NCBI RefSeq assembly: GCF_028463845.1
Contig: NZ_CP116805.1
Location: forward strand, 248,001-312,000
DNA from: Gimibacter soli
Lineage (GTDB): Bacteria > Pseudomonadota > Alphaproteobacteria > Sphingomonadales > Kordiimonadaceae
Direction: 5' to 3'
Length of the DNA: 64,000 nucleotides
Shown here: positions 41,886 through 60,014 of the stretch, in pieces
Layout of the letters: the number at the start of each line of letters is the position of its first letter
Position numbering within the stretch: the first letter of the stretch is position 1
Made by a program: the position numbers and the translations under genes
The notes under the pieces: model-generated
What the model was told of the DNA's origin: nothing
The model's input: the letters and a program-made list of their open reading frames with translations, nothing else
Database searches by the model: none

Positions 41886-42201
41886 GACGTTTCTCCCATC
41901 CGGTCAGGTCCATCGCCTGCCGGGTATATCAATTCAGTTTCAACAAGAAAAAGCTGTCATGCCTGATTGACCGCTAGCCCCAAAACGGCGGTGCGTAAAC
42001 TTTCTTTATAACAGTTTTGGCGGGTCGTCACGCGATTTGTTAACAAGTAGTTAACACGCAACTTGCCACTTATGCCCGCGATCATTAACGCAAGAGCAGC
42101 ATCAACAGCCGTGAGATTACACGCCCGGACGCTAATCCGGGCAAAACGCAGTCGCAGCACAAAAGTCTGGAAATGGGGAAGTGCCCATCTTTGACCGGAA
42201 A

Positions 42202-42259
42202 TGGCGCACCCGAAGGGATTCGAACCCCTGGCCTCTGCCTTCGGAGGGCAGCGCTCTAT
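42202..42259 (-). other. 3' fragment of tRNA-Arg(CCG), attachment-site remnant
   Basis: On the minus strand the segment reads as a tRNA from the end of the D arm to the CCA tail. The anticodon stem is CTGCC/GGCAG around the loop CTCCGAA (anticodon CCG), the T arm has the TTCGAAT loop with a 5-bp stem, and the end is CGGGTGC-G-CCA. The 5' half (acceptor strand GCACCCG and D loop) is missing; identity stops at 42259. This is what is left when an element recombines into the 3' end of a tRNA gene. Confidence 0.85.
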
Positions 42260-42291: not shown

Positions 42292-42317
42292 TCGTGTAAC
42301 ATATATATTTTACACGA
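42292..42317. promoter_or_regulatory. 26-bp near-palindrome, copy 1 (upstream of the integrase)
   Basis: Arms TCGTGTAA and TTACACGA flank an AT-rich centre, 26 bp in total. Near-copies lie at 51336-51361 and 60204-60229. This copy is 104 bp before the integrase start. It probably binds a protein coded by the element, either a repressor or a recombination/partition factor. Confidence 0.65.
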
Positions 42318-42420: not shown

Positions 42421-43686
42421 ATGCCCAAGATCAACAAGACCCTGGTCGATAGCCTCACATCCACAGAGAAGGACTTCGTTCTATGGGACGATGAGGTGAA
42501 AGGGTTTGGTGTTCGGGTGTGGCCTTCTGAAAAGAGAACATTCTTTTTTCAGTACAGGCCCAGGGGCTTCCGGCAAATCAAAAAAATCACGCTTGGACAT
42601 CACGGCAAGGTAACGGCCGAAGAGGCGCGGCGCCAGGCAAAGACATATGCTGGCCAAGTGTCAGCGGGAGGTGATCCAGCCGCAGACATTGCCATGAAAC
42701 AGAAGGAAAAGGCCCAGCAGGTTCTTCTTGCGGATTTTTGCGATCGATATCTTGAAGCCGCCGACAAAGGACTGATTCTTGGGCGAAGCGGCAAACCTAA
42801 AAAAGAAAGTACGCTCAAAATCGATCGGGGTCGCGTTGCGCAGCACATCAAACCACTGCTCGGCAAGATCAGCGTGAAGGATATTTCTCAAGCCGACATC
42901 TCCAAATTCATCAAGGATGTGACGGTTGGCAAAACTGCCAAGGACGTTGAGTCAGGGAATCTGAGGGGTCGAACGGTAGTGAAAGGCGGGGCTGGTACAG
43001 CAACTAGAACGGTTGGCTTGCTTGGAAGCATTATGTCCTATGCCGTTTCAGAAGGATTGATCGCATACAACCCGGTGACTGGTGTGAAAAAGCCAGCCTA
43101 CGTTAAGCGAACCACGCGCTTAACTAAAAAGGAGTATCTAAAGCTCGGAAATGGCTTGGAAAAGTCAGAGTGGGAAGGTGATACGTATCAGGCGATCCTA
43201 GCGGTTCGCCTATTCGCTCTGACCGGATGCCGCAAAGCAGAAATTATCAACCTTAAATGGGATGAAGTGGACTTCACGAACCGATGTTTACGCTTGGGTG
43301 ATTCCAAGACAGGTGAATCGGTTAGACCTCTTGGCAAGCTGGCCATCGACCTCCTTAAGAATGCCCCACGATCCAACGAATGCGACTTCGTACTGCCTGG
43401 TGCTCGACAAAAGACGAAGCCCTTTGGTGGAATGGCAAGGGCATGGAAAAGAATTTTGAAGAGATCTGAATTGACCGGATTCACAATTCATACGCTTCGT
43501 CACTCGTATGCCAGCATGGCTGGTGATTTGGGCTATTCAGAAATCACTATCGGCGCCCTAATCGGCCACGCAGCAGGATCTGTAACGAGCCGCTATGTGC
43601 ACCACCTTGATGAGGTCCTTTTGGCTGCTGCGGATCGGGTTTCAGAAGCGATCGACACGGCCATGAGTGAAAAAAATGACGATTGA
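42421..43686 (+). CDS. Tyrosine integrase (P4-type, DUF4102 arm domain)
   Basis: A 421-residue site-specific recombinase. The N-terminal DUF4102 arm-binding domain is seen in VLWDDEVKGFGVRVWPSEKR and ITLGHHGKVTAEEARRQAK. The SAM-like core domain follows and the catalytic domain has the arginine in LTGCRKAEIINLKWDEV, the HTLRHSYASMAGDLG box, the second histidine in LIGHAAG and the nucleophile in SRYVHHL. It lies directly inside the tRNA-Arg remnant, as P4-type integrases do, and should catalyse integration and excision of this element. Confidence 0.95.
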   Translation: MPKINKTLVDSLTSTEKDFVLWDDEVKGFGVRVWPSEKRTFFFQYRPRGFRQIKKITLGHHGKVTAEEARRQAKTYAGQVSAGGDPAADIAMKQKEKAQQVLLADFCDRYLEAADKGLILGRSGKPKKESTLKIDRGRVAQHIKPLLGKISVKDISQADISKFIKDVTVGKTAKDVESGNLRGRTVVKGGAGTATRTVGLLGSIMSYAVSEGLIAYNPVTGVKKPAYVKRTTRLTKKEYLKLGNGLEKSEWEGDTYQAILAVRLFALTGCRKAEIINLKWDEVDFTNRCLRLGDSKTGESVRPLGKLAIDLLKNAPRSNECDFVLPGARQKTKPFGGMARAWKRILKRSELTGFTIHTLRHSYASMAGDLGYSEITIGALIGHAAGSVTSRYVHHLDEVLLAAADRVSEAIDTAMSEKNDD

Positions 43687-47631: not shown

Positions 47632-48045
47632 TCAGGTTCTCTTATCGATCTCTACGCCGGTCAGGGGCACAAGCCATTCTGATGCTTCCATCAAGGCCCG
47701 TTTCTGTGAGCGTGAAAACCTCCCCCATACCTCACCGTGGCAGGGGTTGCTGTCCAGCGGATCCAGTCCGACCATGAGCTCAACATCTCTGGCCGCGCCT
47801 GCCGTAAACTGCACAGCGCCTTTCCACTTGGGGGTAACGACATATTCTTCCGGCATGCTGCCGGTAGCAGTGATCAACTTTTCAATATCGACTGACATCC
47901 CGCCACCAGAGGACGGAGAAAATACCTGACTGGACAGGCGATTGGTCTGCAGGTTCTCATCGTAAACGAGGTGGTTTTCGGGATCGATGCGGCGAATGAT
48001 CAGGTCGTCTGCCTCAATCGAGTCATCATCGTACGGCGCCACCAT
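47632..48045 (-). CDS. Hypothetical protein, third gene of the TIGR04255 cassette
   Basis: A 137-residue acidic protein (N-terminus with DDDSIEADDLIIRRID) with no known domain. It starts 8 bp after the preceding gene and is probably cotranscribed with the two genes upstream on the minus strand. Confidence 0.6.
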   Translation of the reverse strand: MVAPYDDDSIEADDLIIRRIDPENHLVYDENLQTNRLSSQVFSPSSGGGMSVDIEKLITATGSMPEEYVVTPKWKGAVQFTAGAARDVELMVGLDPLDSNPCHGEVWGRFSRSQKRALMEASEWLVPLTGVEIDKRT

Positions 48046-48053
48046 ACGAAAAA

Positions 48054-48587
48054 TCAGCCTTCAGCAGCGACGGCTACAGCATCAGTCCGCCCGCGGTTCG
48101 AAAGCTGCTTCACCCAATTTTGGACCGAACTGAAATCGTTTGTCAGGTTAAACTCTTCTTCATGCCCGGAGTTCCTATCGTAACGATACGCATTCACCTT
48201 ATTTGGGGCCAAGACATGGATTTCGACATCATAGCCGTTGCGATGCCATTCGATCTGAACGGTGCCGTCACTTCCAGGTACTAGGCTCGGCGGCGGTACA
48301 TACTCTTCATTGAGACGGTCCAGAATGTTTGCCGCGAATTCGGCACAACTCCATGAGACAGGAACCCCCTGATAGCCATCCCACCCTCTGGGCAAAGCCG
48401 TCAGTTCATCAAATCGCGGACGCAGAACGGACATCCATTCAGACTGATACGTCTCGACAACAATACGATGAGGTCTGAAGTCGCGTCGAATTATCTGGCC
48501 TGAGCTCTGTGACAAGTTGAGAGTCGAAAACAGGTCCATGTGATTTTGAAACGCACTTGTGAATATTGCATTGGCTTTTGGGCTCAT
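48054..48587 (-). CDS. Hypothetical protein, second gene of the TIGR04255 cassette
   Basis: A 177-residue protein with a LPRGWDGYQGVPVSW stretch and a later strand pair SDGTVQIEWHRNGYDVEIHV. This GWDGY...EWH pattern recurs in small proteins of accessory regions but has no assigned function. It overlaps the upstream gene by 4 bp (ATGA), so translation is coupled. Confidence 0.62.
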   Translation of the reverse strand: MSPKANAIFTSAFQNHMDLFSTLNLSQSSGQIIRRDFRPHRIVVETYQSEWMSVLRPRFDELTALPRGWDGYQGVPVSWSCAEFAANILDRLNEEYVPPPSLVPGSDGTVQIEWHRNGYDVEIHVLAPNKVNAYRYDRNSGHEEEFNLTNDFSSVQNWVKQLSNRGRTDAVAVAAEG

Positions 48588-49387
48588 TGCACTTTACCCC
48601 ACGCTTTGTGGGCCTGCTCTGTTGTTACTTTGTCGAAGGTGGTAACGATTTTGTCTCGCCCCATCTCAAGAAACTTAATGGCTGATACCAGATCTGTTCC
48701 GTCCGGTGCCCCCCGAACAGTGAAGTTCAGCCTTAAGGCAAAGGAGGAACCATCATTCTTCAGCCCTGATATAAGTTCACCGAACAGCCTCCCGCAAGGC
48801 CTGCCATCTGAATGCTTCAGGATTTCTACGAAACTTGACGATACATTCTCGATGTCGCCATCCTTCAATGAGCTGAACCTGAACCAGTCCTCGATCTCAC
48901 TATAACTCGAAACCGGGATTATATTGAAATAGCTGATCTCCGCTTGGGTCACTTCCGGGACGAAGTTATGAAAAGCTTTGTACCAAGCTTTCAGACGCTC
49001 GAAATAAGTGCTGAAATTTTCCGCCATCCCCTCAAAGCGAGGGTAGCGGTTTCCGTCCCTCCGGCGCCAGTTCAATAGTAACCGGTCGTTCTGGAACTGA
49101 AGCAAATGGCTTTCATCAGCAGCAATAAACCACGAGCGAGGACGCAGCGGCGGCGGCGATAACCTAAACTGGACACCTGGAGGTCGTGACCCTCCGAACG
49201 TCTCGAAAGTGGCATCCATAGGGAATTGCTCTTGGAAACTAGGGAATTCCTCACTGAAAAGGTCATGGAGCGTATGAAGGCCTAGTGACGTATAGGTCGG
49301 ACAAGCCGTGAATTGCAAACCAACCACCACTTCATCGAGTGGCGGATGTGTATAATCAGGTAAATGATCAGGTCGGCTAGTTTGCAT
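48584..49387 (-). CDS. TIGR04255 family protein
   Basis: A 267-residue protein of the sporadically distributed TIGR04255 family, recognised by the start PPLDEVVVGLQFTACPTYTS and the later strand FSPPLR-like RPRSWFIAADESHLLQFQNDRLLLNWRR. No function is established for the family; members are patchily spread and often next to other orphan genes, as here. It is first of three overlapping or closely spaced minus-strand genes. Confidence 0.72.
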   Translation of the reverse strand: MQTSRPDHLPDYTHPPLDEVVVGLQFTACPTYTSLGLHTLHDLFSEEFPSFQEQFPMDATFETFGGSRPPGVQFRLSPPPLRPRSWFIAADESHLLQFQNDRLLLNWRRRDGNRYPRFEGMAENFSTYFERLKAWYKAFHNFVPEVTQAEISYFNIIPVSSYSEIEDWFRFSSLKDGDIENVSSSFVEILKHSDGRPCGRLFGELISGLKNDGSSFALRLNFTVRGAPDGTDLVSAIKFLEMGRDKIVTTFDKVTTEQAHKAWGKVQ

Positions 49388-49448: not shown

Positions 49449-49910
49449 TTGCCGCTTACTCAGAACAGCAACTGGGGCCCAATCGCATTGGCGCGTGATG
49501 CCTTTGAAAGGGAATACGACAAATTGCAGAAAACTCTCAACACCTCAAAAGGATTGATTACCATCCTTACAGACGAGCATTCGGCATCGGCATTCAATAC
49601 GAGTGGCGAGAAAGTTGGTGAAATCATCTGTGGTGAATGTTGCGTTAGGCTCGATGCGATGGGCGAACCTCAGTATGAATTATTGTTGACCTCAGCCAAT
49701 GTCGACCAAATGTATCGCAGGCTCGGGATTGCTGAAGCTTGCGTTGAAGCTATTTGTGAGACGAGTGGCCAAATCATATTTGCTAACATGGATGCCTATA
49801 TGCCCCAATCAGATGGGAGCCATTTAACAAGCGATGGCAAAGCGTTTGCGTACAAAATGATAAAAAAAGGAAAAATGAACAGAATGACATCTGATGATGT
49901 GGACTCCTAA
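49449..49910 (+). CDS. Small GNAT-like protein, weak start
   Basis: A 153-residue open frame. The stretch VDQMYRRLGIAEACVEAICETSGQIIF resembles the acetyl-CoA loop and following helix of GNAT acetyltransferases. No ATG is available in frame near the start; the first usable codon is TTG at 49449 and no ribosome site is evident, so a frameshift or degraded start is possible. It ends 14 bp before the antitoxin-like gene, so the two may form a pair. Confidence 0.5.
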   Translation: MPLTQNSNWGPIALARDAFEREYDKLQKTLNTSKGLITILTDEHSASAFNTSGEKVGEIICGECCVRLDAMGEPQYELLLTSANVDQMYRRLGIAEACVEAICETSGQIIFANMDAYMPQSDGSHLTSDGKAFAYKMIKKGKMNRMTSDDVDS

Positions 49911-49924
49911 AGCCTGATACGTCT

Positions 49925-50296
49925 ATGTCAGGAAAGCGATATACTGCTGAAGATGTGAGAATGCTGACCAAGGCGATCAATCGGATTGCTGACCTATGGA
50001 GCATCAAAAACTCAGATCTTGGCGCCATTCTTGGCGTCTCGCCTGCGAGCATCAGCCAACTTCGCAATGGCGCTCGGGAGCTTTCCCCCGAAACGAAAGA
50101 ATTCGAACTTGCACAATATCTGGCGCGCCTGTTCCACAGTCTTGATGCAATGGTGGGCAGTGATGATCGAGCCGCAAAGAGCTGGCTGAACACCGAGAAT
50201 AGAGAGCTTCAGGCTAGGCCGATTGATCTTCTCAAGACCATCCGAGGTCTCGTAGCTTGCGCTGACTACCTGGATGGGTATCTAGGCACAAACTAA
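49925..50296 (+). CDS. Xre/MbcA/ParS-like antitoxin-family protein
   Basis: A 123-residue protein. The N-terminal half is an HTH (AINRIADLWSIKNSDLGAIL, then GVSPASISQLRNG) and the C-terminal half resembles the toxin-binding domain of the Xre/MbcA/ParS family (ARLFHSLDAMVGSDDRAAKSW followed by LQARPIDLLKT). These antitoxins normally accompany a RES-domain toxin. No RES gene follows here; the next gene is a phosphoesterase on the opposite strand and the preceding one is GNAT-like. Confidence 0.75.
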   Translation: MSGKRYTAEDVRMLTKAINRIADLWSIKNSDLGAILGVSPASISQLRNGARELSPETKEFELAQYLARLFHSLDAMVGSDDRAAKSWLNTENRELQARPIDLLKTIRGLVACADYLDGYLGTN

Positions 50297-50307
50297 GAGC
50301 CGGATGC

Positions 50308-51132
50308 TCAGACCTCAACGACTCCCCATTGAAACGGTGGAAGCCCTTCTCCTGGATAACCTCTTTGACTAGATAGGATTCTGGTCCGACCGATTATCTG
50401 ATCATAATTCCAGTGAGTATGACCAGAAATCCAATAATCCGGGATTAGCTGACCACCTGCAATTTCATCGGCCCAGGAGTTGTAAAAGTAAGGCCCTAGC
50501 TCGTCTCCAGCATGAACAGGATCGGACATAAAAACGGGCGGGAAATGGGTGAGGACTACTGTTGTCCCGACATGAGTTTTAGCGAGTTCCTGATATAGCC
50601 AGTCCCGGGATTCCGCATTGATGCGCTCAGCATCTTTCGGCGAAAAAGGACGATCTACACCAAGCTGGCGGATTTGAATCTGCCGAAAATCGTGCAGAAA
50701 TTTTCTGGCGGCCTCCTGAGCAGACTCTTTCCACTCAGAGCCATACGCCAGAAAATCGGTCCAAAGCGTGCAGCCCAAAATCCTGACGCCATTAATCTCG
50801 ATAACATCTCTTTCTAGGAAAAAGACACTGCCCTGGAGACCATGTTTTTCGGCATATGTTCGGCAAGATTCGAGATAGTCATCCAGCACCGCGCCGTAAA
50901 ACTCATGGTTTCCGGCGACTGCTACTACCACTTTCCCAGTTCTTTCATGCACCAGATGCGCCCACACCATCAGCCGAGGGGATGATGGGTCGTCCCTCCC
51001 ATTCCACGCCGGCTCGTACCCGACATCGACGTCCCCCAGGAGAGCAATCAAATCCACGTCCAAAACAGGCGACAGATCCGGCAAACCTTGTCCAAATTCA
51101 AAATGCAGATCCGATCCGAATGCAATTTTCAT
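50308..51132 (-). CDS. Calcineurin-like metallophosphoesterase
   Basis: A 274-residue phosphoesterase with all dimetal motifs: SDLHFEFG at the start, LLGDVDVG, VVAVAGNHEFYG, a histidine in VVLTHFPPV and the final GHTHWNYD. It is a single-domain cytoplasmic enzyme. The substrate (nucleotide, phosphodiester, protein) cannot be told. It is convergent with the antitoxin-like gene, separated by only 11 bp. Confidence 0.9.
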   Translation of the reverse strand: MKIAFGSDLHFEFGQGLPDLSPVLDVDLIALLGDVDVGYEPAWNGRDDPSSPRLMVWAHLVHERTGKVVVAVAGNHEFYGAVLDDYLESCRTYAEKHGLQGSVFFLERDVIEINGVRILGCTLWTDFLAYGSEWKESAQEAARKFLHDFRQIQIRQLGVDRPFSPKDAERINAESRDWLYQELAKTHVGTTVVLTHFPPVFMSDPVHAGDELGPYFYNSWADEIAGGQLIPDYWISGHTHWNYDQIIGRTRILSSQRGYPGEGLPPFQWGVVEV

Positions 51133-51335
51133 GGGAGGTGATCTCAGTCTTTTGCAGAAGGGGTTGAAGCGGGAAAAGAGAGGGGCCGAAAGAGCGAGGA
51201 GACGTCAGAGATTTCGCCCGGCCCTACCTCCCGAGGAGGTGGATGATGGACTTACCCACAGAAGCCCGCCGGAGATCCCCATCAAGATACCAACTGTCTC
51301 AATTTTAGACAAGACATCCTCGCATGAAGTAATTG

Positions 51336-51361
51336 TTGTGTGTAATGTATATTATACACGA
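51336..51361. promoter_or_regulatory. 26-bp near-palindrome, copy 2 (upstream of the TSP1-like gene)
   Basis: Reads TTGTGTGTAA, centre TGTATA, TTATACACGA and is almost identical to the copy at 60204 (two differences). It lies 110 bp before the gene start, in a 339-bp gap that otherwise holds the promoters of two divergent genes. I saw no RNA gene in this gap. Confidence 0.65.
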
Positions 51362-51471
51362 ATATTGAAGTGAAAATCCGTCATGTCTGTGACTTTTTGT
51401 TGGATTTTCAATTACGTGCCGATTCTTTAAATGATAAATTGGCCTCATTAATACATTATGAGGCCAGCATA

Positions 51472-52959
51472 ATGACACATGCATCTCCCACCCTGAAAAT
51501 ATTCACTGCGTTATCTTTAGCCGTAGCGGGACTTTTGGCCTTTGAAGTATCCGTTCGTGCAGGTGAATCGGATGGTCGAACATCAGCATATGAAGCACAG
51601 GACGGGGCGTCGTTAACCCCGGAACAGATGGAGGCTGGCTATAGTCTCCCGATACTCGCTCACGCTAAAACGGTTGGACATGCAAGAGAGGTAGGCTTTG
51701 CCAATACGGCCGGCACGGCGGCGACCGTCGACCTCGCCACACAGGCGACGCGCGCACTGAAGGCAGATGATGCCGACAAGCTTTCGGGTAACAGCGCATC
51801 CTATTATACGAACGCGAGCAATCTCTCGAGCGGCACTCTCAACATCAATCGCCTGGTCGGATCGCTTGTCGATAGCGACAACAAGATTCTGAACTCGCTG
51901 ATGAGCGGTGAGACCTACGACATCTCGATCAGCGGGAATTCGTCGACGGCCACTTCTTCGGCAAATTGTACAGGCGGCAGTGCGAACTGCGATTATTTCA
52001 CCTTTGCCTGGAATCCATCTTCGTGGACCGCCTGGTCGGCTTGTATGGCTGGAATGCAGTCCCGGACACGCGCGGTAATTTGTGAACGCTCGGACAAGCC
52101 GGGTGTGGTGCAACTCGACACTAACTGCTCGGGCCTAAAGCCTGACATGTATGAGAGCATTGCATGTGCGGGCTATTCATATAGCTACCAGACCGGTAAT
52201 TGGGGCGGCTGGTCCGCTTGCTCCGGCGGGTCCCAATCCCGCAGCCGTTCTGTCTGGTGCGAGCGCTCTGACGGCGCCACGGTGCCTGACTCCTACTGCT
52301 CGGGATCGAAACCTTCGACGACATCATCGCAGTCCTGTACTGTCACGACTTATGACTGGGCCTACTCCGGCTGGAGCGGTTGGTCTTCATGCTCGGGTGG
52401 CAGCCAGTCTGCCACTCGGACAGTCTGGTGTGAGCGTTCAGATGGTGCAACCGTGTCCGACAGCTATTGCTCGGGCTCAAAGCCTTCGTCATCGAAAACA
52501 CAATCCTGTTCGTCGGCGTCTTACAGTTGGTGGGCTGGAAGCTGGGGCTCTTGGGCTGGGTGCGCAACGGACCCGTCAGCCGGCACTCGAACGAGGACAG
52601 TTCAGTGTCGCAACGACCTGACTGGTGCAAAAATTTCGACAACTTATTGCGCGGGCGCCACAAAACCGGCGACGTCGGAAACTAAGGCCTGCCCGCCGCC
52701 TCCAACTGGTTTGAAGTGGATTTTCACCCCCTTCCCTTCCACAGTCACCTGTCCGCGGGGCTGCACGCCTACGACTTACGCAAAGTCGCCCCCCATGGCC
52801 GGAGAGAAGCGTTCGCTAAGTGCTCCTTCCTCATCTGCCGCCTGCACCATCGGCTCGACGTACACGCATGTAATTAAGTCCGGCTGGACTGCGAAGTGCA
52901 CCGGCACTACCGGCATCTGCATGGAGACAATACAGATCAAGCGGTACAACTGCTCATAG
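51472..52959 (+). CDS. Secreted protein with tail-fibre-like segment and four thrombospondin type-1-like repeats
   Basis: A 495-residue exported protein. A signal peptide (LKIFTALSLAVAGLLAFEVSVRA) is followed by a segment like phage tail-fibre repeats (KLSGNSASYYTNASNLSSGT, about 105-135). Then come four Cys/Trp-rich repeats of the TSP1 type, starting about residues 183, 242, 300 and 357: WTAWSAC, NWGGWSAC, GWSGWSSC and SWGSWAGC, each with an RTR/RSR arginine strand and later paired cysteines. The C-terminal 90 residues have more cysteines but no known fold. TSP1 repeats are adhesive modules, rare in bacteria; a surface-binding role is inferred. The ATG at 51472 gives the signal peptide and has GAGG before it. 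Confidence 0.75.
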   Translation: MTHASPTLKIFTALSLAVAGLLAFEVSVRAGESDGRTSAYEAQDGASLTPEQMEAGYSLPILAHAKTVGHAREVGFANTAGTAATVDLATQATRALKADDADKLSGNSASYYTNASNLSSGTLNINRLVGSLVDSDNKILNSLMSGETYDISISGNSSTATSSANCTGGSANCDYFTFAWNPSSWTAWSACMAGMQSRTRAVICERSDKPGVVQLDTNCSGLKPDMYESIACAGYSYSYQTGNWGGWSACSGGSQSRSRSVWCERSDGATVPDSYCSGSKPSTTSSQSCTVTTYDWAYSGWSGWSSCSGGSQSATRTVWCERSDGATVSDSYCSGSKPSSSKTQSCSSASYSWWAGSWGSWAGCATDPSAGTRTRTVQCRNDLTGAKISTTYCAGATKPATSETKACPPPPTGLKWIFTPFPSTVTCPRGCTPTTYAKSPPMAGEKRSLSAPSSSAACTIGSTYTHVIKSGWTAKCTGTTGICMETIQIKRYNCS

Positions 52960-52978
52960 TTACTCACGAGTTAACTAT

Positions 52979-53905
52979 ATGACAAAAAACAAAAAACTTG
53001 CTCTTCTCGCTGCCACATGCTTGAGCGCCGCCTCACCAGGCGCCGCTCATGCCAGCGAGATAAAGATCGGCCTGCTTGACACGGAAATCTCGACAAGTTT
53101 GGATGACCGGCCAAACTTGTCGATCATCCTCGGCCCCAAGGCTCCGGACCGCCCAGGATATCATCGCGCGAGCTATCCGATTGCTGATGCAATGATTAGT
53201 CATGGCGACTTGATGGTGCACGGCATTATCGATGGAGTTGACCGAACGTTGGGCTCTGGCGGGGCGATCATGATCTTTCATGCGAACCCATTTCTGGAGA
53301 AGGATGGTTCAGGCGGCAAATTGGCGGTTGATTGGCGAGCGGCTCATGAAGCACTCAGTTGGTATCATGAAAATGGCGTGAAAGTTGTCGTCACAAGCTT
53401 TGTTAACGAAAAAACAGCTGCAACGGAGCACTTCATGAAAACGGCTGAAGAACTCGGCCTGCAGATCATAACTTCAACAGGGAATAAACGTGCTGACTTT
53501 GCACCCTGGCCTGCGTCACATCATGCGGCAATCTCCGTTGCGGGTACAAACAAAGGACTGCGGGTCAATTATGACAGTGTTTTAGAAGGGATTGTCGATC
53601 TGGTTATAGATGGAGAGCCGGCGATCAATTTCAGCCGCACCGGATTTGGTAAAAAGGATGCGACATCCAGCTCATATGCCACCGCCCGAGCCGGCGGCAT
53701 GATCGCCGCCCTGGTCTGCACCTTCGACCTTGAAGGGAGGGAGGAGATCATGGAGGTGCTGCATGGCCACACCGAGCCCCGCCAGTTCGGCAAGTTTACC
53801 TATGATTTTCTCGATTTCGACGCGCTGAGCCCGGGTGTCTGGGCAGCTTATCAGATGGCAGTAAAGCTCGGCGACGGTGGAGGCGGGTTGAGTCCGGGGA
53901 TGTGA
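52979..53905 (+). CDS. Divergent subtilisin-like (S8) serine peptidase
   Basis: A 308-residue exported protein (signal peptide ending AAHAS). The order and spacing of an S8 peptidase can be followed: GLLDTE (Asp34), SHGDLMVHGIIDG (His75), a GVKVVVTSF strand, the oxyanion Asn169 in TSTGNK, PASHHAAISVAG, and the serine block SSYATARAGGMIAAL (Ser232) in place of the usual GTSMAAPHVAG. The triad is thus complete although the motifs are divergent. It starts 19 bp after the TSP1-like gene and may process that protein or act with it at the cell surface. Confidence 0.65.
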   Translation: MTKNKKLALLAATCLSAASPGAAHASEIKIGLLDTEISTSLDDRPNLSIILGPKAPDRPGYHRASYPIADAMISHGDLMVHGIIDGVDRTLGSGGAIMIFHANPFLEKDGSGGKLAVDWRAAHEALSWYHENGVKVVVTSFVNEKTAATEHFMKTAEELGLQIITSTGNKRADFAPWPASHHAAISVAGTNKGLRVNYDSVLEGIVDLVIDGEPAINFSRTGFGKKDATSSSYATARAGGMIAALVCTFDLEGREEIMEVLHGHTEPRQFGKFTYDFLDFDALSPGVWAAYQMAVKLGDGGGGLSPGM

Positions 53906-53944
53906 TCTCTCCTGACATACGAGCATAAATCAATAACTCCCCCC

Positions 53945-53973
53945 TTGAAATTATGGGCAATTGCCCATATATT
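53945..53973 (+). promoter_or_regulatory. Promoter with an 18-bp palindromic operator in its spacer
   Basis: TTGAAA (53945-53950) and TATATT (53968-53973) stand 17 bp apart. The perfect palindrome TATGGGCAATTGCCCATA (53952-53969) fills the spacer. Binding of a dimeric repressor would block this promoter. The HTH gene at 54008 is the first downstream and likely codes the repressor. Confidence 0.72.
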
Positions 53974-54007
53974 ATAAACATTGGTATGGTCGTGGAGTTT
54001 CCTTGAT

Positions 54008-54232
54008 ATGATGTTGCCAGACGAGATTAGGAAAGCTCGCGAGAGTTTGGGTTTGAAGCCAGCCCAGCTCGCTATCTTGCTTGATACGGATACTCTTTCG
54101 ATCAGGAGAATGGAGCTCGGCTCTCATTGTTCAACACACCGCAAGCCGGCACCACGCATGGAGCGACTGATACGCGCTTACCTATCCGGCTACCGACCCG
54201 ACGACTGGCCGGATAACAGAAAGGAAAAATGA
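54008..54232 (+). CDS. Small HTH protein, probable autorepressor
   Basis: A 74-residue HTH protein; EIRKARESLGLKPAQLAILL, followed by DTDTLSIRRMELGSHCS, fits the recognition-helix pattern of MqsA/Xre-like transcription factors. The start is one of two adjacent ATGs (54008 or 54011). A palindromic operator lies in the promoter upstream. The stop codon is followed after one base by the ATG of a 28-residue hydrophobic peptide. Confidence 0.72.
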   Translation: MMLPDEIRKARESLGLKPAQLAILLDTDTLSIRRMELGSHCSTHRKPAPRMERLIRAYLSGYRPDDWPDNRKEK

Positions 54233-54233
54233 C

Positions 54234-54320
54234 ATGGCGATTCTGAAGATCTTTTGGCCACCCAACTTGCTGGCTGCCATCTGCGTCCTGGAAGTGACCC
54301 TGAACACGGTCTTCTTCTAA
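54234..54320 (+). CDS. 28-residue hydrophobic peptide
   Basis: A tiny open frame coding for MAILKIFWPPNLLAAICVLE and eight more residues (VTLNTVFF). AAGGAAAAA forms a good ribosome site, the ATG is one base after the HTH stop, and a terminator follows 18 bp after the stop. The peptide is largely hydrophobic and could insert in the membrane. Such HTH-plus-hydrophobic-peptide pairs can be type I-like toxins or small regulators; which one applies is unknown. Confidence 0.5.
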   Translation: MAILKIFWPPNLLAAICVLEVTLNTVFF

Positions 54321-54337
54321 AAATTCGAAACCAAAAG

Positions 54338-54363
54338 GAAAGGCCCGAGAAATCGGGCCTTTC
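54338..54363. terminator. Bidirectional terminator between the peptide gene and the DotA/TraY gene
   Basis: An 11-bp stem (GAAAGGCCCGA / TCGGGCCTTTC) with a GAAA loop and A/T runs on both sides, located between convergent genes. Confidence 0.88.
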
Positions 54364-54376
54364 GCATTATTCCATC

Positions 54377-56665
54377 TTAATCCTTCACGTTCGGTCGTAG
54401 AGATCCACCCTCCGGATTGACATTTTCAATGTCGACACCAGCGCTGCGTACACGGCCAGTCGGGGTCTTGTTCATGGTAGCGGCAGCAGCCACGACCCCC
54501 TCAAATCTCTGGGTTATCCCCGTCCCCGCGAGTGCTCCAGCTACATCCCCCTCGACGTTGCCGCGGCTCTGGATATTGAACCAAACGTTGAAGATTGTAT
54601 CAGGGACCGACGTCATTAGTCGGAAGGAGAGCTTTCCGATGTACCAGGCCACCACGACCTGGAAAACGAGCATGACAATCGTTGCGGTGATTCCGACTTT
54701 CCCAGCAACCATCCCGTTAAAGAAGGGGATGAACTGACTCATGGCGATTGATATGAAAATATAGTAAACCGCTATCGTTAGGAAAAATCCGATCACGATC
54801 AGCATCGGTTTAATCAGCACGCCAAGGAGTATCAGCCATCCAGGCACCATCCGGTTGTCGACGAACTCATCGCCCTTGAAGCTCATGTGGATGACCATCC
54901 ACAGGGGGGCCGCCAGGATTGCTTCAACTACGCCTATCATCCACTGAAAAATGGCGAAGAGGTAATTGATCCAGACCATGAAGGGGATGACAAAGGCGAA
55001 ATACACACCAACAAGGAACAGCGTTCCAGCCATGCTATTCGTGTAGGTTGAGAGGCTCTGATGAAGAGAAACTGCCGCTGCCAGGCCTCCGGACAGTGGA
55101 GCAGCAGCGGCTCCTGCGACAGGTTGATTAGCCAGATTGTCCGCCGACTTGGCAGCTGCAGTAAGGATCATTTTTGCTCCAGCCATCCCGCCGAATATGG
55201 CCTCGGATGTATTCAGCAGGATGTGCCCGAACCCGGTCAGTGAAGTGATGGGGTCAACCACCCCTCCGCCTTCCATCATATCAGCGAGTTTTTCTGGATC
55301 TGCTCCATTTGCCATCGCTTCACGGTATTCAGCACTATCCTCGGCACTCCCGCCTTCCGCCGAGAAGTTTGTGATCGACAGGGTTGCATATTGTGCCCTT
55401 CTCACCGATTGCGTGAGGTACTTACTGAACCAGTTTTTCAGGCTGTCGAAGCCGTCGCTCCATACTTCGACGGACATCATGTCCGACCATTCCAGTTCTC
55501 GTTCTTTTTCATTCACATCGATTGAAAATCCGGTTCCGCGGTCAACCATCAGCCACGTGTCATTTATTGTGTGCCGGAACGCTTCAACCTTTCCCGAAAT
55601 GTGATCGTCGTTATTGAACTGTTCGATAATGTAATCCCAATCCGGCCCGACAATTTTCGGGAGGAAGCGCATCCCGCTTGCTGCGCGAGCGTTCAGCTTG
55701 CTAATTTCCAGCCAGTACATTCCCGCGCCGGCCCAACCACTTTTCAGGGCTCTGTCTTTGAAATCAGCCCGCAGGCGATCCCCTTCTTCGTCTGCAATCA
55801 TGGCAGCCTGCGCGATAACTAATTGATTATATTCTGAAATCGTACCGCCGATTTTGCCCGCAGCAGTGCGGTTGGAACTGTCTTTCCATTTCGTCGTTCG
55901 CGAATTGAGTGTCATCCCTGCGATATTGACAAGCATCGGCTGCGCAGCCCTTGCAATTTTTTTGATTTGCTGGGCGTGCAGATTTTGCATGGCGGTTACC
56001 GCCGGGGCTGACACATCTTCTCCCGCAATTGCTGGTCCACCAATTTGGGCACTGCCACACGCGTTCTTGCCAAGGATCTCTTCCCCGTCGACCATCAGTG
56101 GCGTTGTCGTTAATTGCAGATTACCCTGACCATCCTCGCCCATTAGGATGAGTTCTATCTCATTGATCTTTTCCAAGTCGTATCTTTCAAAAAAGATCGA
56201 ATTAATGAGCACTCTGCAGCTTTGGATTTCCCAGATCTGCTGCGCAACTCGCGTTACATCCAACCCGTTTGACGCCGAGATAGGCGATACGTGTTCGGTC
56301 ATCTGGTTCACGCCTCGCTCCCAAAGGTCGTTTGCCATACCAACAGCTTGCCCCGCGATCGCCATGATCACTGAAATAATAATAGGGTAGCCCGAGGCAG
56401 TCGGCGCCAGCATCGTGAAAGAGCCGACCACCCGGAGCATGCCCCAGGTGCCAGACCAGCCGCGGCCGAAGGCCTCACCATCTTTGGCGCTGTTCACGAT
56501 TCCAATCAGAAGAAGATAGGTCAGCCAACCCGTCGCTACGACAAGAACATACGAGTTGTACTGGTCAAATAAAGTTGCGATGACAGAGCCACCCTGCCCG
56601 CTGGCGGAGGTGATCACGTCAAGGGCGCGATAGATTTGATCGTTTTCATATCCAGTTTCGACCAT
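54377..56665 (-). CDS. DotA/TraY family inner-membrane protein
   Basis: A 762-residue multi-span membrane protein of the DotA/TraY family, a part of type IVB (Dot/Icm, IncI-type) conjugation systems. An N-terminal helix pair (YVLVVATGWLTYLLLIGIV; ISVIMAIAGQAVGMAN) frames a long periplasmic loop. A cluster of helices is found at the C-terminus (FLVGVYFAFVIPFMVW, WLILLGVLIKPMLIVIGFFL, ITATIVMLVFQVVVAWYIGK). The start at 56665 follows GGGGAAAAA and its ATG shares the TAATG of the upstream stop codon. No other Dot/Icm component appears in the window. Confidence 0.82.
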   Translation of the reverse strand: MVETGYENDQIYRALDVITSASGQGGSVIATLFDQYNSYVLVVATGWLTYLLLIGIVNSAKDGEAFGRGWSGTWGMLRVVGSFTMLAPTASGYPIIISVIMAIAGQAVGMANDLWERGVNQMTEHVSPISASNGLDVTRVAQQIWEIQSCRVLINSIFFERYDLEKINEIELILMGEDGQGNLQLTTTPLMVDGEEILGKNACGSAQIGGPAIAGEDVSAPAVTAMQNLHAQQIKKIARAAQPMLVNIAGMTLNSRTTKWKDSSNRTAAGKIGGTISEYNQLVIAQAAMIADEEGDRLRADFKDRALKSGWAGAGMYWLEISKLNARAASGMRFLPKIVGPDWDYIIEQFNNDDHISGKVEAFRHTINDTWLMVDRGTGFSIDVNEKERELEWSDMMSVEVWSDGFDSLKNWFSKYLTQSVRRAQYATLSITNFSAEGGSAEDSAEYREAMANGADPEKLADMMEGGGVVDPITSLTGFGHILLNTSEAIFGGMAGAKMILTAAAKSADNLANQPVAGAAAAPLSGGLAAAVSLHQSLSTYTNSMAGTLFLVGVYFAFVIPFMVWINYLFAIFQWMIGVVEAILAAPLWMVIHMSFKGDEFVDNRMVPGWLILLGVLIKPMLIVIGFFLTIAVYYIFISIAMSQFIPFFNGMVAGKVGITATIVMLVFQVVVAWYIGKLSFRLMTSVPDTIFNVWFNIQSRGNVEGDVAGALAGTGITQRFEGVVAAAATMNKTPTGRVRSAGVDIENVNPEGGSLRPNVKD

Positions 56666-57126
56666 TATTTTTCCCCTTTTCTTTTGAGGAGGTTGAGGCA
56701 CGAAATTACTGATTTCGGCAGTGGAAGTTGTTTCAACCAGTCGCAAAATTCGAGGAATGTCCGTTCTTCTGCCTGGCGCACCCGCCAAAACTTCTCGAGG
56801 CTGAGCACGAAAAAGAGAATGGAAACGGCCATAGGATACAGGCCACGATTCCACTCGGTTTGGCAAAAGTTGTAGATTCCGAGGCCGAGGCTGCTGATGC
56901 TCATCGCACCAAGTATCAGTCCAACCGTCCGCAGGTGTTCGACGGTGGATGAGAGATCAGCAGATGACATGTTTCGCATCTGCATCATTTCTCGAAACGT
57001 GCTGAATGGCATGGCGGGGCGAACCAGACGGTCTTTCAGCGCTCGCAGATTGTTGCGGCTTCGAAGAGCAATCCGCCCGACCTTGTCGGCACCGAGATCG
57101 GGTTTAACGAGATTTGTAATTTTCAT
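56665..57126 (-). CDS. Small membrane protein upstream of DotA/TraY-like gene
   Basis: A 153-residue protein with two adjacent hydrophobic helices (VGLILGAMSISSLGLGIYNF, then YPMAVSILFFVLSLEKFW). The remainder is basic. Its stop overlaps the DotA/TraY start (TAATG), so translation is coupled. In IncI1 plasmids traX stands directly before traY; I suggest this as a positional analogue only, since no sequence match to TraX is seen. Confidence 0.6.
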   Translation of the reverse strand: MKITNLVKPDLGADKVGRIALRSRNNLRALKDRLVRPAMPFSTFREMMQMRNMSSADLSSTVEHLRTVGLILGAMSISSLGLGIYNFCQTEWNRGLYPMAVSILFFVLSLEKFWRVRQAEERTFLEFCDWLKQLPLPKSVISCLNLLKRKGEK

Positions 57127-57493: not shown

Positions 57494-57694
57494 TCACTTT
57501 TGATCGTTTGGTTTTGATGGAAACAGCCCGCGCACAAAGACGGGGGCGGCGACTACGAACAACGCAAAAACGAAGCTTTTCGTAAGCCACCCATAGTAGC
57601 TCGCCACGGCACCGGCCATCGCCATTGCGCAAAAAAGGATATGCCAAGCTTCGGCGATATCCTCCACGAGCCTATTAAAAACAGGTTTTTTCAA
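57494..57694 (-). CDS. Small membrane protein of the mobilisation operon
   Basis: A 66-residue protein with two hydrophobic segments (WHILFCAMAMAGAVASYYGW and FVFALFVVAAPVFVRGLF). Its start overlaps the relaxase stop by 4 bp (ATGA), so it is translated together with the relaxase. A role in coupling the relaxosome to the membrane is possible but only inferred from position. Confidence 0.6.
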   Translation of the reverse strand: MKKPVFNRLVEDIAEAWHILFCAMAMAGAVASYYGWLTKSFVFALFVVAAPVFVRGLFPSKPNDQK

Positions 57695-59550
57695 AGGGTG
57701 ACTCCTTCATTAAAGTATGGATCGCTGTGATCGAATTCAAATTCGTCCTGGTTGTCGTTCGATTTTCGATTTTTGATCTCTTCTAGTTTTTCCTGCCATG
57801 CTGCGTGCAGGGCTGGATCTGTGGCTTCGATCGGCAACTTCATGCGTGCCGCTTCTTGCGCGATCAGCATCTGAAACGCAGCCCCCTCGCCTGGCGGGAT
57901 GGGCACGGCCTTCATTTTCCGGCGACGGGCCGAATAAACAAATTCTCGCGCCCGATCGGGAAGCTGTTCTACCGAGATTTTTTCGAGTTCAGCCTGGTAA
58001 ATTTCCTGGGCACGCGGGTCTTCTGCCTCGATGACGACGCCGATCCGGGCAGCCTCGCGAGCGGCTAGAAGTTGAAACTCGAGACCACCTTCGACCACGA
58101 CTGTCGACCATTCCTTGGCCTTGGCCATTTGAAGCATGACGGCGACAGCGTCTGCATCGACGGCACTCGCTTCAAGCGCATCGCCGCGATCTCGAATCTG
58201 GATAAATTTTGGCTCGGCATCCTGCTGCCGCGAACGGATAACTGTCTTTTCTTCGCTGGCCCAGACGATTTGAGGCAGGATCCAGCTCGGCAGATCTGCG
58301 TCACGGTAAATTACAAAAAAATGCCGAACGCGCCGCTCAGACTGCCTGCCTGCCGGTTTGACCGCGCACACCATCTCGGGCTCCCGAGCCACTTCGGCAA
58401 GGGCCTCAAGGGCATCTTCCTGCTCTTCCGCGATCGTTGCTGCGGGCTGATATGGCGGTTTGTGCGGGTCAATATTATACAAGCCATACCTTTTACGAAC
58501 CGCCGCCGCGCGTGCCTTCAGGACTTCGGCAAAATCTGCTGAGTAATATTCTGGGTCCTGGCGTCGCTGGCCAATTTCGCCGGCGAGCATCCCCATGATT
58601 TTATCGGCAGAGGTGAATTCGCGACTGAAGAGTGCACCAGCCACTTTGATTGGCCGGCCGCCTTCGCGTCCCGGGACGTTGAACGTGACATGTTTTCGGC
58701 CTTTCCCACCTGCCGCGCGAGACTTTTGCCAGGCCTCGGAGGGCGTCCATCCGGCCGCTGCAAACTCATCAACGAGCTCGTCGACATTATCAACGAGGCC
58801 GGCGCCGAACAAAATTCTTGCCGCGCGCCCAAGGCGACACTCCATAACTTGTCGATTAGCGCCCCGCGCGGAGTTTAGCGTCATCCGCACCAGGTCCCTA
58901 ACCGCCTTCTCATTTCCCAGGAATTCAATTTGTGGTTCTGCGAGCTCCGCCTGAAGATTTTCGTCCCCCGCTGCTGCTTTTTTCTGAATTTCCGGTCGCG
59001 CCCGAAACAGCTGCATCCGCTGCGGATTAAAGGGATCAGCTAAGCCGTATTTTTGATTGATGTGGTCGCCTAGAATGTTGAAGTGGGTGATGGAATAAGA
59101 GTTTGGCTGCGGGTCAAACGCGCGCTCTACCCCGTCCACAATGATAGAGGTAGAGAGCATGCAATTGATCTCAACGCGCCCCCGATCCAAATGGAAATTC
59201 CAAAACCGGGCCGGCCAAATTGATTCATCCAGGCCTGCGAACATCATTTTTTCGGCTAGCGAGACGATATCGGTGGCCCTCTTCAATTCAGCCGGGTCGT
59301 CAGTGAGAATTTTTTGCCAGTCGAGGTCAAGCTCATGACCGCTAAGAGTAAATGTTCGATATTTGACGTCTCGGCTGATCGCGCTAACTGCTGCAAGAAC
59401 CGCTTTCGGATCGCCAAGGAATGGCTTCGGCGGCACAGAACGTCTGATCAGCTGACCGCTCTGCCACTTCGTCTCTCCTGTCAAGTATCGCCAGGCGCCC
59501 ATTCCTGTTGGGTCGGCCTTGCCCTTGTGCTTTGACCACGTCGGCATCAT
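57691..59550 (-). CDS. Relaxase, HEN-type (MOB family with H-E-N motif)
   Basis: A 619-residue relaxase. The presumed nucleophile tyrosine is Tyr22 in GMGAWRYLTGE. The metal site is the variant HxxxxxxExN: His120, Glu127 and Asn129 in FHLDRGRVEIN, as in the ColE1 MbeA-type relaxases, instead of three histidines. The C-terminal half contains two similar segments (residues about 455-560), probably duplicated domains: AKEWSTVVVEGGLEFQLLAA and PIPPGEGAAFQMLIAQEAAR. It is preceded by mobC with a 4-bp overlap. It should nick the element's oriT and lead strand transfer. Confidence 0.82.
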   Translation of the reverse strand: MMPTWSKHKGKADPTGMGAWRYLTGETKWQSGQLIRRSVPPKPFLGDPKAVLAAVSAISRDVKYRTFTLSGHELDLDWQKILTDDPAELKRATDIVSLAEKMMFAGLDESIWPARFWNFHLDRGRVEINCMLSTSIIVDGVERAFDPQPNSYSITHFNILGDHINQKYGLADPFNPQRMQLFRARPEIQKKAAAGDENLQAELAEPQIEFLGNEKAVRDLVRMTLNSARGANRQVMECRLGRAARILFGAGLVDNVDELVDEFAAAGWTPSEAWQKSRAAGGKGRKHVTFNVPGREGGRPIKVAGALFSREFTSADKIMGMLAGEIGQRRQDPEYYSADFAEVLKARAAAVRKRYGLYNIDPHKPPYQPAATIAEEQEDALEALAEVAREPEMVCAVKPAGRQSERRVRHFFVIYRDADLPSWILPQIVWASEEKTVIRSRQQDAEPKFIQIRDRGDALEASAVDADAVAVMLQMAKAKEWSTVVVEGGLEFQLLAAREAARIGVVIEAEDPRAQEIYQAELEKISVEQLPDRAREFVYSARRRKMKAVPIPPGEGAAFQMLIAQEAARMKLPIEATDPALHAAWQEKLEEIKNRKSNDNQDEFEFDHSDPYFNEGVTL

Positions 59551-60014
59551 TTCGCGACACCCCGCTCGCGCTCGTCTGCGATACGGGCGAAATGGAAAGT
59601 TGCTTTTTTTGCCGATTCATCAATGGCATGAAGCACATCTTTCATGCGATCAATGAGGTTGATCATTTCATCGGCCCTGCCCGCGGCAACAAGGTAGTTG
59701 GCCGCGTGCGAGATCTGGTTGACGTTCACGCCGATTTTCTGAAGCTGGTACGAAAAATGGGTCATAGCTTGGGCAAGCGCGCGATCTGCTGACCTATCAG
59801 TGTCGCCGATTGTGGTGCTGCGATCTCGCCCCCATTCTGAATCGTTTGAGCAACCAGCAGCACGCGCGCAGCGAGTGATTAGGGCGCGCTCGCGCGGAGT
59901 CACACGAAATTTAAAGTCAACCGACTTGAGGTTATCGCACCCCCCACTTGCAGCACCATCCTCGGGAGAGGTGGGGAAAGTGGCACGGGAAGAGATTGCA
60001 GTTACATCATCCAT
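59547..60014 (-). CDS. mobC: MobC-like mobilisation protein
   Basis: A 155-residue relaxase accessory protein. The MobC family pattern is clear in KFRVTPRERALITRCARAAG (DNA-binding half) and YQLQKIGVNVNQISHAANYL (the IGxNxNQ signature). It assists strand opening at oriT. Its stop overlaps the start of the relaxase. It begins the minus-strand mobilisation operon; the region upstream (60015-60523) holds the candidate oriT and several repeats. Confidence 0.87.
   Translation of the reverse strand: MDDVTAISSRATFPTSPEDGAASGGCDNLKSVDFKFRVTPRERALITRCARAAGCSNDSEWGRDRSTTIGDTDRSADRALAQAMTHFSYQLQKIGVNVNQISHAANYLVAAGRADEMINLIDRMKDVLHAIDESAKKATFHFARIADERERGVAK

Follow-up and report, generated by a model that had tools for sequence, protein, structure and literature searches.

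A secreted TSP1/tail-fibre protein encoded on a predicted IME of an alphaproteobacterium is a candidate transfer accessory

Analysis of a 64,000-nt window (contig NZ_CP116805.1, positions 248,001 to 312,000; coordinates below are those of the window) of the single-contig, 3.59-Mb genome of the alphaproteobacterium Gimibacter soli placed a gene for a secreted protein with a tail-fibre-like segment and four TSP1 (thrombospondin type 1) units, followed by an S8 peptidase gene, inside a ~30-kb integrated element with a tRNA-Arg target. We tentatively propose, as a reading with a chance close to even, that this predicted integrative mobilizable element (IME) carries the TSP1/tail-fibre protein as a secreted accessory of transfer that acts at the surface.

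Results

The gene pair lies within a predicted IME at tRNA-Arg

The element is delimited by a perfect direct repeat and encodes its own integrase and mobilization proteins:

42198..42259, unstranded: attL, 62-bp perfect direct repeat, 3′ part of tRNA-Arg(CCG)
42421..43686, + strand: tyrosine integrase (PF00589, E 3e-19)
57691..59550, − strand: relaxase-like protein with LPD7 domain (PF18821, E 9e-15)
59547..60014, − strand: MobC/NikA-like relaxosome protein (PF21983 and PF05713, both E about 5e-7)
72151-72212 on the window scale, 8.2 kb past the window end: attR, second perfect 62-bp copy

The relaxase-like LPD7 protein shows weak similarity (21%) to annotated relaxases. A Y-family polymerase gene (+ strand), Rep-like genes, and defence-like genes are also found between the att repeats. 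In a genome of the same genus the tRNA and right flank are present and the element is absent, while the left flank differs over 1–3 kb. The att repeats, integrase, MobC, and relaxase-like gene thus establish the location on a mobile element that the first-pass annotation of this DNA had assumed.

The element combines an integrase and flanking 62-bp att repeats at tRNA-Arg with its own mobilization genes (MobC and the relaxase-like protein) and no complete T4SS, as expected of an IME. Apart from icmV and dotA (see below), no T4SS genes were found among the element ORFs scanned, and a search of the whole single-contig genome found no coupling protein (PF02534). Because of these two results the element is probably, judging from its gene content, an IME that would need a helper, and a self-transmissible ICE was rejected on the same grounds.

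TSP1 units in the secreted protein follow a pairwise cysteine pattern

The secreted protein and its downstream neighbour are encoded as follows:

51472..52959, + strand: secreted TSP1/tail-fibre protein, 495 aa (Pfam, PHROG, sequence search)
51712..51975, + strand: tail-fibre-like stretch as searched (PHROG 5342, cyanophage tail fibres)
51997..52692, + strand: four TSP1 units, four Cys each (Pfam, cysteine comparison)
52979..53905, + strand: predicted exported S8 subtilase, 308 aa (Pfam Peptidase_S8, alignment)

The N-terminus of the TSP1 protein contains a hydrophobic, signal-like segment of the Sec type (residues 1–30), followed by a tail-fibre-like region (~88–165), the four TSP1 units (~176–407), and a Cys-rich C-terminal domain (~409–495). 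Residues 81–168 match PHROG 5342 ‘tail fiber protein’ (E 5e-6), and the segment shares 54% identity over 48 aa with tail fibres of T4-like cyanophages (E 2e-4). The Pfam family TSP1_ADAMTS (PF19030) matches four stretches with a whole-protein E of 1.1e-10 and a score of 42 bits, above the curated cut-off of 23.8. The ORF, Pfam, and PHROG results together confirm the earlier description of a signal peptide, a tail-fibre-like repeat, and four TSP1-like modules in one protein. No toxin family matched the C-terminal domain in profile searches, and no close relatives of the protein were found in viral contigs or phage records.

The window units contain four cysteines rather than six and keep the W and R positions. 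By analogy with canonical TSP1 domains, we infer that C1–C5 and C3–C4 are retained and that the C2–C6 pair is absent. Single-sequence AlphaFold2 models gave pLDDT values of 32 for the TSP1 protein and 35 for the S8 protein, and a comparison of cysteine positions in 44 TSP1 units from related prokaryotic proteins served as a substitute for fold prediction. The cysteine count at C1/C2 predicts the count at C5/C6 in 42 of the 44 units: two cysteines in the first strand (C1, C2) are in every case matched by two at the end (C5, C6), and a single one by a single one in all but two units. Units within a protein do not count as independent; taken by protein, the rule holds for all units in 10 of 12. 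This pattern, as expected if the C1–C5 and C2–C6 disulphides are kept or lost as pairs, supports the identity of the units as TSP1 domains. The window units appear to have lost the C2–C6 bridge, and the Erythrobacter units the other one.

The exchangeable C-terminal part of PilV adhesins is generated by a shufflon. Shufflon or silent tip cassettes were considered at this locus and rejected, with only weak short repeats found within 51300–54400, and the Sec-type N-terminus of the window protein is not that of a prepilin.

The S8 catalytic set is intact, and the pairing with TSP1 was found only at this locus

The S8 gene begins 19 bp past the TSP1 stop codon. Its product matches Peptidase_S8 (Pfam, E 5e-6, above the cut-off), and D34, H75, N169, and S232 all align in place with six other S8 proteins, giving the Asp/His/Ser triad and oxyanion Asn in subtilase order. 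An exported S8 peptidase directly downstream, as noted previously, is therefore upheld with its catalytic set intact. The protein lacks a ~200-aa N-terminal region present in its relatives, and its sequence matches in the PDB are distant subtilisins.

No close relatives of the S8 protein were found in genome contigs, viral contigs, or plasmids, and no S8 gene adjoins any other TSP1 locus examined. The suggestion that the two genes form an unusual pair, with the first product processed by its own protease, thus finds no support, and the pair sought in other genomes did not co-occur; the link between TSP1 genes and mobile elements is unaffected. Since the pairing was found only here, processing of the TSP1 protein by the S8 peptidase is a guess.

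A palindrome is shared by the integrase, TSP1, and mobilization genes

A putative operator occurs at three sites in the element:

42293..42316, unstranded: variant palindrome CGTGTAACATATATATTTTACACG, which starts 128 bp before the integrase
51338..51359, unstranded: 22-bp palindrome GTGTGTAATGTATATTATACAC, putative operator, which starts 134 bp before the TSP1 start codon
60206..60227, unstranded: same palindrome, between mobC/relaxase (−) and the Y-family polymerase gene (+)

The form at both 51338 (TSP1 gene) and 60206 (mobilization/polymerase) is GTGTGTAATRTATATTATACAC. In 122 kb around the element there are exactly three sites with up to three mismatches, all within the element and spread over 18 kb, while 380 kb of control chromosome and shuffled sequence contained none (none being expected in the latter). 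The regions upstream of icmV-dotA and of those other cargo genes that were checked yielded no copy, nor did the surroundings of the element's rep genes. Judging from these positions, the simplest reading is that a single regulator would govern excision, mobilization, and the TSP1-S8 operon. No copy turned up at other TSP1 loci; the link is therefore specific to the elements of this host.

A fourth copy is located in the mob region, beside mobC/relaxase genes, of a second IME in the same genome. This element, at tRNA-Leu(TAA) (G000:C1, about 2,855,000–2,867,000; loci L052 and L053), encodes a relaxase with 25% identity along with MobC-like and RepC-like genes. It carries different cargo, with no TSP1 and no TraX/TraY genes.

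TSP1 genes are rare and recur near conjugation genes

TSP1 genes were detected in 5 of 385 alphaproteobacterial genomes, one of these matches being treated as spurious (in G362, where an 86-aa frame overlies an integrase gene), and in 2 of 398 genomes of a phylum sample. On an Azospirillum plasmid, two tandem TSP1 genes lie inside an F-type transfer operon and adjoin the pilin gene traA. TSP1 genes are also found beside VirD4, relaxase, and NikA genes with an integrase nearby (G456), beside relaxase and VirD4 genes in Falsochrobactrum, and on plasmids of Sphingosinicella and Erythrobacter. In Falsochrobactrum (L028:6582-10447), the TSP1 gene directly follows a gene whose prepilin-like product (1,072 aa) contains an S74 tail-fibre chaperone domain. 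Counter-examples with no transfer genes near the TSP1 gene are G009 (a Calx-beta protein), UBA2136/G176, and G430. For comparison, coupling proteins of any kind are present in 41 of 133 genomes, mostly a few in each, and on this basis we roughly estimate that well under 2% of random genes would fall within 10 kb of one.

The two Azospirillum copies (L045:7942-11285) have 1,070 nt in common at 98.7% identity and then diverge into unrelated C-termini, and the single TSP1 gene of A. oryzae (L009:14113-15717) is a recombinant of both. A constant stalk bearing exchangeable tips would give this pattern, and such an arrangement is typical of receptor-binding proteins. TSP1 proteins elsewhere have little in common outside their TSP1 units, and a shared function is for that reason an extrapolation.

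The element encodes a lone IcmV/DotA pair

Downstream of the S8 gene, on the opposite strand, are two genes related to traX and traY of I-type systems:

54377..56665, − strand: DotA/TraY-family protein (TIGR04346, E 1.4e-80)
56665..57126, − strand: IcmV/TraX-like membrane protein (NF038219, E 5e-4; position beside dotA)

The dotA ORF as listed extends to 56866; its ATG at 56665 overlaps the stop codon of icmV. The IcmV match is well below the curated NF038219 cut-off; the gene overlaps the dotA start. Few genomes of this order encode a DotA-family protein (2 of 299), and the best plasmid matches to the window protein are only about 24% identical. The element has a full-length DotA/TraY with an IcmV-like neighbour, putative substitutes for helper T4SS subunits of the kind that an SGI1-like island would carry; excA and other tra genes were not found on it. 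As an I-type counterpart of SGI1's TraG, this lone pair on an IME (54377–57126) may be more informative than the TSP1 gene.

An expected co-occurrence of TSP1 genes with I-type plasmids was not borne out, the four TSP1 plasmids being absent among the 40 DotA matches listed. Elsewhere (L054, G028:C365:8639-13333), a further DotA gene, likewise beside a gene for a small membrane protein, adjoins what by eye appear to be TrwC-type relaxase and coupling-protein genes.

Discussion

Relation to known systems

SGI1 uses its own TraN, TraH, and TraG to remodel the mating pore of IncC and disables exclusion as well (PMC5389848). Like SGI1 and its relatives, and like Gisul2 (TrbJKL), the window element appears as a mobilizable island with a few mating-apparatus subunits rather than a whole system, and the subunits of SGI1 include the channel subunit targeted by exclusion (PMC5389848, PMC5704250). 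It differs in that its subunits are of the I type (IcmV/DotA, corresponding to TraX/TraY) and in having its own MobC and relaxase-like gene, plus the TSP1 fibre protein. In IncI plasmids, TraY is the entry-exclusion target of ExcA (PMC8923210, PMC6112013). The arrangement of a small membrane-protein gene beside a gene for a polytopic DotA-family protein resembles TraX-TraY of ColIb-P9, R64, and pCTX-M3, although the window DotA has only distant plasmid matches and excA and other tra genes were not found with it.

Secreted Ig-like proteins are required for IncHI conjugation; these RSP proteins are likewise multidomain and encoded with transfer genes, but contain an Ig-like domain and no TSP1, and are exported by the plasmid's T4SS, whereas the window protein has an N-terminal signal (PMC6764697). 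PilV of IncI conjugative pili is described (PMC9045228) as a pilin-borne adhesin whose exchangeable C-terminal part sets the mating partner; the window protein differs in lacking a prepilin N-terminus and a detectable shufflon at its locus. The Azospirillum proteins WP_136705936 and WP_136705937 are also secreted TSP1 arrays with a Cys-rich C-terminus and are encoded within a conjugation operon, although their N-terminal region differs, their TSP1 units have six Cys, they lack an S8 partner, and the transfer system is of the F type.

The open-access literature yielded nothing on point for bacterial TSP1 domains with conjugation or for IMEs with TraY/DotA. An IME review of 2017 includes carriers of TraG/H/N and TrbJ/K/L and makes no mention of TraY or DotA. 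Since the search covered open-access papers, the novelty of the TSP1-transfer link and of TraY/DotA on an IME is provisional.

Proposed role and alternatives

In the proposed model, a single regulator would switch on excision, mobilization, and the TSP1-S8 operon in cells that also contain a helper conjugative element. The TSP1 protein would be exported, with its fibre and TSP1 units forming a stiff, disulphide-bonded stalk, and its Cys-rich C-terminal domain would bind the surface of the partner cell and stabilize contact. Meanwhile TraX/TraY would take the place of the helper's own channel subunit, possibly as a way around that helper's entry exclusion. The least certain step concerns the S8 peptidase, which may shorten the stalk, set it free, or cleave surface proteins that stand in the way. 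An adhesive role for TSP1 domains is plausible from their uses in eukaryotes. The earlier idea of donor-recipient contact gains indirect support from the palindrome common to int, mob, and TSP1 and from the TSP1 proteins encoded elsewhere in or near conjugation genes.

The main competing account is that the protein is ordinary surface cargo that benefits the host cell by attachment to particles, biofilms, or eukaryotic hosts, with the palindrome as a general on-switch for cargo. IMEs usually bear cargo, this one has defence-like genes as well, and some TSP1 genes have no transfer genes nearby (the G009 Calx-beta protein, UBA2136), yet the palindrome occurs at int and mob, no copy turned up ahead of those other cargo genes that were checked, and TSP1 genes recur within or beside transfer genes; we consider this account unlikely. 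It is less likely still that the protein serves as a weapon against neighbours, either an exported effector or something like a bacteriocin, in which a stalk would carry a toxic C-terminal domain and the S8 peptidase would free the active part. The signal peptide, the receptor-binding-like modules, the C-terminal domains that vary among relatives, and the protease gene 19 bp behind would all suit a weapon, but the C-terminal domain has no toxin-family match, there is no evident immunity gene, and other TSP1 loci lack an adjoining S8 gene. Because the TSP1 gene has the same palindrome as int and mob, which a transfer role explains better, that role is preferred over the effector.

The palindromes themselves could instead be replication, partition, or DNA-processing sites of the excised element, leaving the TSP1 gene outside the transfer regulon. 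The copy in the second IME is near a RepC-like gene, and the half-site GTGTRTAA resembles an inverted DnaA-type box. The copies of the first element, however, lie upstream of the int, TSP1, and mob/polymerase genes over 18 kb, with none found near its rep genes, and we regard this explanation as improbable, on a par with the effector.

Returning to the transfer role, a broader form of it, which we hold as rather doubtful, is that proteins with TSP1 arrays make up a hitherto unrecognized class of adhesins for mating contact, found on mobile elements of Alphaproteobacteria and bearing C-terminal tips that can be exchanged. In this IME one such protein would be coupled, under the int/mob operator, to substitute TraX/TraY that hijack I-type helpers and bypass exclusion. 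If true, this would suggest a function for bacterial TSP1 domains, provide an I-type counterpart of the SGI1 strategy, in which the helper's mating apparatus is borrowed and altered, and allow the transfer regulon in such elements to be recognized by a short palindrome.

Other genes on the element

A small regulator gene follows the S8 gene:

53981..54232, + strand: small HTH regulator (phrog_14076, E 2e-19)

A separate palindrome, TATGGGCAATTGCCCATA, is located at 53952–53969 just 5′ of this gene and is probably autoregulatory. Between the integrase and the TSP1 gene are a small operon with matches to the PADLOC candidates PDC-M32A/M32B (47632–49387), a possible toxin-antitoxin pair consisting of a weak acetyltransferase-like protein and then an Xre/MbcA/ParS-type antitoxin (49449–50296), and a calcineurin-like phosphoesterase with a match to the PADLOC candidate PDC-S10 (50308–51132). 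Further downstream, from 62683 to ~67610 on the window scale (L015:683-5610), an SMC-like protein matching Lamassu LmuB profiles and a 616-aa partner form a candidate defence system.
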